Positions 1 through 62,476 of a stretch of DNA of 64,000 bases are shown in pieces. The DNA is from Antarcticibacterium sp. 1MA-6-2 (GTDB taxonomy: Bacteria > Bacteroidota > Bacteroidia > Flavobacteriales > Flavobacteriaceae), in assembly GCF_021535135.1 (NCBI RefSeq), contig NZ_CP091036.1:3224001-3288000 (forward strand), written 5' to 3'. Within the stretch, counting starts at the first letter, position 1. Every line of letters starts with the position of its first letter. The translations under genes were made by a program, and so were the position numbers. The notes below the pieces were generated by a model that made no database searches, had not been told where the DNA came from, and was given only the letters and a program-made list of their open reading frames with translations.

Positions 1-584
1 TATTGATGTTTCCCTGGAGTATTCTGGAAGGCCACTTGCCAAACGAATGGTAATTCCTCTCGTAAATACTATTTATTATGCAGGTCAAAAACATCCTGAC
101 GTCTTTTCACAACAGGATTTGGTAACAAAATTTGAACTTCCTCAAAATGCAGAGGATGTAAAAATTCATTACATCACAACTCTACCATGGCGGACATAGC
201 GGGGGTGATGAATTTATTAAAATTAGAAATAAAGTAAGTGTCAATAATGAGGTGGTTATAAATTTCATTCCCTGGCGGGATGACTGTGCCGCCTTTAGAA
301 GATTTAATCCTTCATCGGGAGTATGGACAAGAAAAGATACTGCTTATGCATATAACAGTAACCGGGAAAGGGTATTTAAAGAAATTGAAGAGCGTTTAGC
401 TTCGTCCGATCTTTCCCGCTCCAACTGGTGCCCCGGCTCTAAAGTTAGCCCTAAGGTAGCTGAACTGGGTGATTTAAAAAAAGGCACATACCAAGTAAAT
501 ATCTCCATAGACGGTACTCCAATAAATGGCGATAAACTTAATCATTGGCTTGTGTCAGCGTATATTACTTATAAAAAAGAATAA
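1..584 (+). CDS. PNGase F-like N-glycosidase (3' part)
   Basis: C-terminal part of a peptide-N-glycosidase F-like amidase, the family that removes asparagine-linked glycans from glycoproteins, usually as a secreted enzyme. The frame is open from base 1, so the start lies outside the window. After the break the reading gives the family hallmark HGGHSGGDEF, then FIPWRDDCA, FRRFNPSSGVW and SSDLSRSNWCPGS, all typical of the C-terminal jelly-roll domain. The frame is interrupted at 179-185 (ACTCTAC), where the family expects Thr-Gly-His, i.e. ACCGGC CAT; this is one of the corrupted RCCGGY sites. Removing one base joins the two halves. Family assignment is from remembered motifs and is strong; catalytic residues in the missing N-terminal half cannot be checked. 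Confidence 0.85.
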
Positions 585-611
585 GTAAAAAAAGGCAAAA
601 TCAATTTTTTT

Positions 612-690
612 AAGTACTCCCGCTCGAGTACTTTTAAAGCTTCAAATACAACTAAAACCCTGTAAAATTCACTGTATTCGGGGGTTTTTA
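612..690 (+). terminator. Two stacked terminator-like hairpins
   Basis: Shortly after the stop of the N-glycosidase there is a perfect 8-bp stem (AAGTACTC / GAGTACTT, 612-633) followed by Ts, and then a second stem of AAAACCC against GGGTTTT ending about 690 with a T-rich tail. Position and shape fit Rho-independent termination before the next gene. Confidence 0.6.
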
Positions 691-813
691 TTTTTCTTTT
701 AAACGATATTTGGAGTGCCAAAATAGAAAGGTTTAATAAAATTTTAAGAAAAGAAGAGGGAGCCAATTCTTACTTTTAAGGATCTCACCCTTTACTAATC
801 TTGACCTTTCTCA

Positions 814-60437: not shown

Positions 60438-60481
60438 TTTGTTTGGTTTCAATTTTACAGGATTAGAATTCTTTCTCATTG

Positions 60482-60540
60482 TCCCCCTGTTCTGCAGAAG
60501 CTTCTTTACCCCACAATTTAAGTAATTCTTTTTCCTCAAG
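60482..60540 (-). repeat. Diverged cluster repeat with coding look
   Basis: Diverged copy of the 58747/59694 repeat. On the minus strand one frame reads EEKELLKLWGKEASAEQG then DNEKEF and stop, like the C-terminal tail of a lost larger gene. Confidence 0.45.
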
Positions 60541-60785
60541 ATCTTACAACCACAGCAAATTTGAAATTTCTCAGGTTGAAAGAAATCTTGAATAACATGC
60601 AGCTAGCCTCTTACTCCTAATTTCAATTTCATTTGAAAACACAGTTCTTTTAAAAAATTGTATTACCCTTACATTTGCTATAAAAATATATTGTTGTTAT
60701 TTATATATGTAAGCAATTATTAAAGATAGTTTGTTATTGAAAACTAATAAGGCCATATTTGTATTGTAATTTAAAATTAAATATT

Positions 60786-62476
60786 GTGTGCGGAATTGTA
60801 TGTGCTTTTGAATTGAAAGAGTCTTCTGAAAAACTGAGACCACAATTGTTGAATATGGCAAAATGCCTGCGCCACCGCGGACCGGACTGGAGCGGGATCT
60901 ATAGTAACGAGAAGGCGATATTGGCTCATGAAAGACTGGCCATTGTTGATCCTACTTCGGGGAAACAGCCATTGTTTAGTGAAGATAAAAATTTGATACT
61001 TGCCGCAAATGGTGAGATATATAACCACAAAAAATTACGGAAGCAGTTCGATGGCCGTTATAACTTCCAAACGCAGAGTGATTGTGAGGTAATTCTTGCC
61101 CTTTATAAGGAAAAAGGTACTCAATTCCTGGATGAACTTAACGGGATCTTCGGTTTTGCTATTTATGATGTGGAGAATAACGAATATTTCATCGCCCGCG
61201 ACCACATGGGAATTATTCCGCTGTACATAGGCTGGGATAAGAATGGAACTTTTTATGTCGCTTCCGAATTGAAAGCTTTGGAAGGTCATTGTACCAAAAT
61301 AGAGCTTTTCCCTCCGGGTCATTACCTGTCGAGCAAGGAAGAAGGATATCAGCGTTGGTACCAGCGGGACTGGATGGATTATGAAAATGTAAAGGACAAC
61401 GAAACCAGTATTCAAGACCTTCGGGAAGCACTGGAAGCTGCTGTGCACCGTCAGTTAATGAGTGATGTTCCTTACGGGGTGCTACTTTCCGGCGGACTGG
61501 ATTCTTCCATTACTTCAGCATTAGCTAAAAAATATTCAGATAAACGTATTGAAAGTGACGATACCGATGCTGCCTGGTGGCCACGACTCCATTCCTTTGC
61601 TACTGCCTTGAAGGCTCACCCGATCTTGCCGCGGCAAGAAAAGTGGCAGAGCATTTGGACACGGTGCATCACGAGGTGAAGTTTACTATTCAGGAAGGAA
61701 TTGACGCGATTAGAGATGTTATTTATCAGCTGGAAACTTATGATGTTACCACTATAAGGGCTTCTACTCCTATGTATTTAATGGCCCGTGCTATTAAAGC
61801 TATGGGGATTAAAATGGTACTTTCCGGTGAGGGTGCCGATGAGATCTTCGGGGGATATTTATATTTTCACAAAGCACCAAGTGCAAAGGATTTTCACGAA
61901 GAGACAGTAAGAAAGCTGGATAAATTACATCAGTACGATTGTTTAAGAGCAAATAAATCTCTTTGCGCCTGGGGAATAGAAGGAAGAGTGCCGTTCCTGG
62001 ATAAAGAATTTATGGATGTCGCTATGAGGTTAAATCCTAAAGATAAGATGATCGTAAAGGGAGAACGCATTGAAAAGTGGGTACTGAGAACCGCTTTTGA
62101 AGATTATCTGCCTGCCAGTGTTGCCTGGAGACAGAAAGAGCAATTCTCGGACGGAGTTGGTTACAGCTGGATCGATACTTTAAAGGAAATGGTGAATGCG
62201 CAGGTAAGCGATGAACAGCTTAAAAATGCCCACTTCAGATTCCCGGTACAACCACCAAAAAGCAAAGAAGAATATTTCTACCGTTCTATATTTTCAGAAC
62301 ACTTCCCAAGCGATGCCGCTGCACTTTCTGTACCTTCGGTACCTTCTGTTGCCTGCAGTAGTCCCACTGCTCTGGAATGGGATGAATCTTTCAGGAATAT
62401 GAATGATCCTTCAGGAAGAGCTGTGGCGAATGTACATTCTGAAGCTTATCAAAAAGAAGTTGCCAAGGCTGAATAA
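60786..62476 (+). CDS. asnB: Asparagine synthetase B (glutamine-hydrolysing)
   Basis: Makes Asn from Asp, Gln and ATP (EC 6.3.5.4). About 563 aa repaired. The start must be GTG 60786 so that the catalytic Cys is residue 2 (MCGIVCAFEL). Glutaminase domain: CLRHRGPDWSGIY, HERLAIVDP, ANGEIYNHKKLR, FGFAIYD. Synthetase domain: GVLLSGGLDSSITSALA, HSFATGLEGSPDLAAARKVAEHL, VVLSGEGADEIFGGY-like segment and EGRVPFLDKEFMD. The break at 61602-61606 (ACTGC) reads one base short; ACCGGC restores ATGLEGSPDL. Hairpin terminator follows. Confidence 0.96.

Follow-up and report, generated by a model that had tools for sequence, protein, structure and literature searches.

Why do so many genes in one stretch of the Antarcticibacterium sp. 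1MA-6-2 genome break at a small family of similar words? The stretch (hereafter the window) is 64,000 nucleotides long and corresponds to positions 3224001-3288000 of contig C1, the single contig of 4,383,004 bases that makes up this genome assembly (97.25% complete; hereafter G000). A first-pass annotation, made from the letters of the window, had listed 30 sites where a garbled word of the CTTAG kind (a scar) stands in place of RCCGGY and a gene is interrupted, and had suggested that a base modification at RCCGGY is misread by the sequencer. This is also the explanation that we find best supported, given a specific genome-wide depletion of the word, normal numbers of it in relatives and the presence of a C5 methyltransferase gene. 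In our reading, consensus basecalling errors at RCCGGY sites marked by a predicted NmeDI-type C5 methyltransferase explain both the shortage and the CTTAG-like breaks, and we put the probability of this at roughly 0.88. Many of the broken genes of the assembly are probably not truly broken.

The window contains no RCCGGY at all. It does contain 172 CCGG words with other flanks, in line with the more than 100 noted originally, and the twelve other flank classes count 8-24 each. Order-1 Markov versions of the window (n = 200) had 21.9 RCCGGY on average and never fewer than 11. Same-genus loci hold 242 RCCGGY in 405,309 bases, an approximate rate, as some loci of this control set (L027-L109) overlap, so that bases are double-counted, and conserved genes are favoured. 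At that rate ~38 sites would be expected in the window, rather than the ~25 assumed at first, and ~2,600 in G000. Indeed, a genome-wide count, set as a check beforehand, found only 62, and the shortage thus extends beyond the window, with ~2% of the expected sites surviving and ~98% gone. The initial statement that every site is corrupted therefore stands for the window and fails for the genome, where these 62 are intact.

The survivors are unevenly distributed. GCCGGC occurs once, ACCGGC and GCCGGT together 19 times and ACCGGT 42 times, while the reversed words number 199, 1038 and 904, respectively, in the same genome. ACCGGT thus makes up 42 of 62 surviving sites and GCCGGC 1 of 62; in the relatives' loci (405 kb) they make up 81 and 43 of 242, the other 118 being ACCGGC/GCCGGT. 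Survival is ~5% for ACCGGT, ~1.5% for ACCGGC/GCCGGT and ~0.2% for GCCGGC, and this dependence on the flank suggests a misreading that depends on sequence, rather than protected sites. Five intact RCCGGY lie within 11.3 kb of one region (L003:5518-16812; C1 875,518-886,812), with scar words interleaved. The region covers metal-efflux genes (P-type ATPases and an efflux adaptor, their open reading frames (ORFs) judged by eye), and the sample possibly contains unmethylated DNA that shares it.

Among 754 degenerate palindromes, RCCGGY was the most depleted in 384 kb of G000 that had been picked blind to this word (5 observed, 95.5 expected), as opposed to 242 observed and 250 expected in the relatives. 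Next in depletion relative to the relatives come GYCGRC, which contains GCCGGC (0.48 of expected versus 1.01), and GTGCAC (0.61 versus 1.07). CTAG stands at 0.36 of expected in the G000 sample and at 0.54 in the relatives. Since GCCGGC is present at 81-739 copies in each of 15 out of 15 same-genus genomes, this ranking makes the gap specific to RCCGGY and, within the genus sample, to G000. As a side observation, GTCGAC was commoner in the G000 sample than in the relatives' loci (10 vs 1) and GTGCAC rarer (25 vs 44).

Frame breaks were scored in two ways. The first used a coding-frame model, trained on long ORFs and with a minimum run of 90 nt, which was applied to the window plus 17 other stretches of G000 (404 kb) and to the relatives' loci (405 kb), excluding the stretches chosen for their intact sites (L002-L004). 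Its costs were changed once, after the initial settings had given zero switches in both sets, and no further settings were used. Relatives' proteins, with queries from the first 48 kb of the window, covered 35,345 of its 64,000 bases. The ab initio model placed a same-strand frame switch within 30 nt of 25 of the 30 listed sites, compared with a mean of 1.3 and a maximum of 6 in 1000 random draws, and missed 5972, 23168, 23668, 28521 and 47504. The relatives' proteins gave a frame junction (at least two loci) at 14 of the 30. Two of these, 23168 and 23668, are among the ab initio misses, and adding them to the 25 leaves 27 of the 30 claimed gene breaks backed by at least one method. The listed scar words are all where they had been placed, albeit with only weak scars at 179 and 61602. 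At 5972, 28521 and 47504 the word is present and neither method detects a break. The sites, in window coordinates, are:

179-185: garbled word, a weak scar, at a frame break (ab initio switch)
3337-3343: scar ACTTAGT (ab initio switch)
3521-3528: scar GCTTAAGT (ab initio switch)
3838-3845: scar GCTTAAGC (ab initio switch; relatives' protein junction, 4 loci)
5972-5978: scar ACTTAGT (word present, no switch by either method)
7848-7854: scar ACTCAGT (ab initio switch)
9116-9123: scar ACCTAAGT (ab initio switch)
14774-14780: scar GCTTAGC (ab initio switch)
16433-16439: scar ACCTAGC (ab initio switch; relatives' junction, 3 loci)
16807-16814: scar GCTTAAGT dividing an FGE-sulfatase-like (PF03781) gene at profile position 108 (ab initio switch; relatives' junction; profile)
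19914-19920: scar GCTAAGC (ab initio switch; one relative)
23168-23174: scar ACTAAGC (relatives' junction, 2 loci; no ab initio switch)
23668-23674: scar GCTTAGC (relatives' junction, 15 loci; no ab initio switch)
24762-24768: scar ACCTAGT (relatives' junction, 14 loci; ab initio switch)
28521-28526: scar ACTAGT (word present, no switch found)
33777-33783: scar GCTTAGC in a 2-hydroxyacid dehydrogenase (PF02826) gene, the match ending at profile position 149 of 178 (ab initio switch; relatives' junction; profile)
36701-36707: scar GCTAAGC (ab initio switch; relatives' junction)
37203-37210: scar ACCTAAGC (ab initio switch; relatives' junction)
37838-37845: scar ACCTAGGT close to where an ORF with an amino-acid kinase (PF00696) domain ends (ab initio switch; relatives' junction; profile)
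39649-39655: scar GCTAGGT (ab initio switch; relatives' junction)
40761-40767: scar ACTTAGC (ab initio switch; relatives' junction)
42012-42018: scar GCTAGGT (ab initio switch; relatives' junction)
47095-47102: scar GCTTAGGT in the gene of an Lhr-type helicase, with PF19306 broken off at 117 of 168 and PF08494 in a later ORF, 47512-48081 (ab initio switch; profile)
47169-47176: scar GCTTAAGT (ab initio switch; weak relatives' junction, 2 loci, opposite strand)
47504-47509: scar GTTAGC (word present, no switch found)
53066-53072: scar GCTAAGT (ab initio switch)
54828-54834: scar GCTAAGC (ab initio switch)
55562-55568: scar GCCTGGC (ab initio switch)
59369-59375: scar GCTTAGT (ab initio switch)
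61602-61607: garbled word ACTGCC, a weak scar (ab initio switch)

The split genes are of ordinary kinds, such as the FGE-sulfatase-like gene, the Lhr-type helicase and the 2-hydroxyacid dehydrogenase; in the first, one piece matches PF03781 from profile position 27 to 108 and the other from 108 to 254. One protein of the window has, among the 120 matches listed, relatives from a mixture of Bacteroidota (Nibribacter, Segetibacter, Salegentibacter, Gillisia). Scans of the window with Rfam and for tRNAs gave no matches.

Not every break lies at a listed site. The ab initio model called 46 switches in the window, 21 of them away from the list, and true gene overlaps produce a background of 29 switches per 100 kb coding in the relatives. 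Junctions from relatives' proteins formed 23 clusters (at least two loci, counted per strand, so that some sites enter twice), of which 19 fall at listed sites and 4 elsewhere (37019, 41499, 42759 and 43888). At 43888-43925 the junction is seen in 16 loci, with no scar word. At 37019-37040 three relatives show a junction close to a T5 run, again with no scar word, which looks like an ordinary homopolymer-length error. Such breaks, together with the word R-CTTTTTT-Y, found 7 times against 1.3 expected near switches lacking a scar word, would fit ordinary low-quality long-read errors that fall independently of any motif. We nevertheless consider errors of that kind a highly improbable explanation, as no independent palindrome is comparably depleted and homopolymers are normal.

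The larger samples showed the same association of scar words with frame breaks. In the stretches of G000 the model called 251 same-strand switches, a rate of 71.9 per 100 kb coding, versus 104 in the relatives' loci (29.3 per 100 kb, true gene overlaps included). Extrapolated on the assumption of the same coding share, the excess of 42.6 per 100 kb coding gives an estimate of ~1,600 false frame breaks genome-wide. Of the 251 switches, 93 have a scar word no more than 30 nt away (random 4.4%), as have 8 of the 104 in relatives (random 3.5%). An unbiased enrichment of 5- and 6-mers at the G000 switches brought up CTAAG/CTTAG (67 vs 13.2 expected), CCTAG/CTAGG (23 vs 3.0), GCTTAG/CTAAGC (38 vs 3.5) and ACCTAG/CTAGGT (21 vs 1.6). 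The two strand forms are about equally frequent near switches (CTTAG 19, CTAAG 23), as predicted by a palindromic mark on two strands.

What could place such a mark? G000 has a single gene matching PF00145 (C1:3944960-3946141, minus strand, ~0.7 Mb from the window) and none matching PF01555, these being the two methyltransferase families searched. The methyltransferase gene overlaps a type II restriction endonuclease (REase) gene (PADLOC REase_II, E 8.6e-132), and comes after two further genes, one for a tyrosine recombinase and one for a Vsr endonuclease (TIGR00632, E 2.7e-46). A system of meningococci, 86% like M.NmeDI, is reported to have a VSR and an REase, the target RCCGGY and an m5C mark (PMC7973814). 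NmeDI is reported to cut 12/7 on both sides of RCCGGY, the word that Cfr10I also recognises (PMC4081073). With its C5 methyltransferase, type II REase and vsr genes side by side, the gene set of G000 matches the description of the NmeDI-type restriction-modification (R-M) system of Neisseria meningitidis, from which it differs in its host, a member of the Bacteroidota and likely of the Flavobacteriaceae, and in that its target and cleavage are predicted.

Homology points to the same target. Among the best 120 of 6702 matches, a 65%-identical homologue carries the source name 'modification methylase NmeDIP'. A Moraxella osloensis plasmid encodes a 53%-identical methyltransferase beside an REase annotated as belonging to the Cfr10I/Bse634I family, and this REase matches Cfr10I itself (1cfr, E 7.1e-96). 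The target-recognition region of such methyltransferases lies between the catalytic motifs and the C-terminus, and this stretch is well conserved between the G000 and Moraxella osloensis enzymes. Unlike its Moraxella counterpart, the G000 REase has no sequence similarity to Cfr10I/Bse634I; its predicted model (mean predicted local distance difference test score 66.8) had no PDB match at E <=0.001, and a PHROGs search with it gave no match. Of the Cfr10I/BsrFI-type system that the first-pass annotation had proposed to look for, we thus found one C5 methyltransferase of an RCCGGY-linked family, next to an REase whose sequence is not Cfr10I-like. The adjacency of methyltransferase and REase recurs in all six other loci examined, from Chryseobacterium to Brevibacillus, with a Vsr match absent from the DNA examined around those six. 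In G000 the R-M genes adjoin vsr and the tyrosine recombinase gene (L001:2996-3974; C1 ~3.946-3.948 Mb), and the system may therefore have arrived on a mobile element.

The methyltransferase is predicted by homology to be active with RCCGGY as its target, which agrees with the missing word, and the mark would be 5-methylcytosine (5mC). For the position of the mark, the initial guess had been the inner cytosine. The guess is not supported, and either cytosine may carry the mark: the scars mainly replace the inner CG of RCCGGY, whereas VchM of Vibrio cholerae, which has the same specificity, is reported to mark the first C (PMC6555945). VchM places 5mC on nearly all RCCGGY according to these reports (PMC4654547, PMC6555945). 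It is an orphan methyltransferase with no REase, unlike the G000 enzyme, with which it is compared here by description.

How might a mark become a wrong letter in the assembly? The predicted methyltransferase would methylate RCCGGY on both strands, so that the reads of both strands would err. The type of error suggests that the reads came from a nanopore-type instrument with a basecalling model ignorant of the mark, and that the assembly was made without short-read polishing. Nearly every molecule would then be misread at the same position, and greater depth would not average the error out; the consensus would keep one strand's error (CTTAG or CTAAG) or merge both (CTTAAG, CCTAGG).

There are precedents for such errors, and the concentration of errors genome-wide on one motif is as in methylation-induced nanopore consensus error. 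With default Oxford Nanopore Technologies models, ~70% of consensus errors in Klebsiella pneumoniae were reported to fall in Dcm 5mC motifs (PMC6591954). Five Listeria assemblies are described with 1533-5670 mismatches at GCAGC or GCTGG that became far fewer once the whole genome had been amplified (in one strain 16 instead of 5670; PMC10687267), and cases in a study with R10.4.1 had errors confined to the methylated strand (PMC12016153). G000 resembles the Dcm CCWGG (PMC6591954) and Listeria (PMC10687267) cases, as reported, in that one modified motif accounts for a large error share and the effect is strain-specific and depth-resistant. It is unlike them in its motif, RCCGGY, in the many length-changing errors, in the ~98% of sites gone and in being an apparently unpolished single-contig Bacteroidota genome.

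The length changes invite a variant of this explanation, with the same artefact and a mark other than plain 5mC, namely a bulkier or different modification, perhaps the work of an enzyme from neither of the two families searched, whose distortion of the signal inserts bases. That nearly all sites are corrupted, often with a change of length, and that the search was limited to PF00145 and PF01555, would be in its favour. However, a C5 methyltransferase of an RCCGGY-linked family already accounts for the motif, and 5mC alone gave most of the reported Dcm-site consensus errors with untrained models (PMC6591954), and we therefore regard this variant as unlikely.

The distribution of the enzyme agrees with that of the damage: G000 has it, and the same-genus genomes without it are unaffected. 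It has no counterpart in 14 of the 15 same-genus genomes, and the remaining one, G013, combines a 39%-identical enzyme with 81 GCCGGC. In a 395-genome sample of the class, three genomes including G000 matched the methyltransferase above the cut-off.

A tandem array elsewhere in G000 (L002:5726-8787; C1 ~2,400,726-2,403,787), examined because it contains intact RCCGGY sites, offers a natural replicate, with a 220-bp unit repeated 13.9 times at 97% matches. At its first site the 14 copies read ACCGGC (4), ACCCGC (3), ACAGC (3) and ACTGGC, ACCAGC, ACTCGGC and ACCGGA (1 each), so that 6 of the 10 non-ACCGGC copies preserve the length. At its second site seven copies read GCTAAGT and the remaining seven have seven other readings. 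In copies 1-13, internal insertions and deletions are confined to these two sites, with substitutions elsewhere; the gaps where copies begin or end reflect the edges of the alignment, and copy 14 runs out into unrelated sequence. This indicates a single underlying ACCGGC site recorded in several garbled forms, true divergence of the copies at both sites being possible but unlikely. The array adjoins ORFs that resemble, by eye, secreted sorting-domain proteins.

These readings bear on whether RCCGGY has truly been lost from the genome, through selection (restriction avoidance) or mutation (deamination of 5mC, giving RCTGGY/RCCAGY). The genome has Vsr and an REase that looks cognate, RCTGGY is commoner than in the relatives (85.9 vs 65.4 per 100 kb), and most aligned RCCGGY positions of the relatives face substitutions in G000, all as a true loss would have it. 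Deamination, however, yields substitutions and not frame-breaking insertions or deletions, and the breaks sit at scar words. Moreover, the array site is read both as ACCGGC and garbled, and the two other carriers of the system retain GCCGGC. In view of the array readings and of these carriers we rejected restriction avoidance and deamination, and a true loss in either form seems to us very improbable.

Several observations weigh against misreading at methylated RCCGGY as the explanation, or leave part of the data outside it. First, 158 of the 251 switches stand away from any listed scar word (45 per 100 kb coding vs 27 in relatives), and the surplus of the eight main scar words over the relatives is ~24 per 100 kb where ~56 RCCGGY per 100 kb are missing. 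Other scar readings, same-length ones included, or other errors must therefore exist, and the array provides examples of such readings; a search for further scar words in the 158 remaining switches gave nothing clear beyond homopolymer-like words. Second, in DNA alignments a relative's RCCGGY faces a scar word at 1 of 23 positions (23668), the other 22 being substitutions or CCGG with other flanks, as expected at the relatives' 70-80% identity, albeit no support. Third, homopolymer lengths are like the relatives', so that the assembly is otherwise unlike poor nanopore data; many scars alter length, while the Listeria errors are reported as mismatches (PMC10687267); and the ACCGGA reading in the array may be a true substitution. 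Fourth, the target of M.NmeDI is given as RCCGGB or, in most reports, RCCGGY (PMC7973814), and the likeness of the G000 system to NmeDI lies in the described gene set and a homologue's name. Lastly, the two other, more distant carriers keep 161 and 271 GCCGGC. Possession of the system is thus not enough to remove RCCGGY, and the corruption would also depend on the sequencing method; a different way of sequencing or polishing these two genomes would account for their counts.

Neither this class of artefact nor the R-M family nor its target is new. The novelty lies in the combination of the motif and the host with a corruption that affects nearly all sites of a single-contig genome and often changes their length; our literature searches on NmeDI/RCCGGY and on RCCGGY with nanopore returned no title on such an artefact, which does not prove its absence. 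By estimate, ~2,500 sites and ~1,600 reading frames are wrong in this genome, and gene-loss, pseudogene and protein-family calls made from the assembly would therefore mislead. RCCGGY is a motif for basecaller training and polishing to cover, and other assemblies with NmeDI-like, Cfr10I-like or VchM-like enzymes merit the same check. The target of a modification system would be recoverable from the assembly alone. More tentatively, and with considerable doubt, the consensus errors by themselves may reveal the target RCCGGY, its marking on two strands, near-complete occupancy and the gene responsible, and the length-changing scars would point to a cytosine modification that is exceptionally hard for basecallers and possibly goes beyond plain 5mC. 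If this is true, the specificities of modification systems not yet characterised could be sought in public FASTA files, and an assembly could be read as a methylome.

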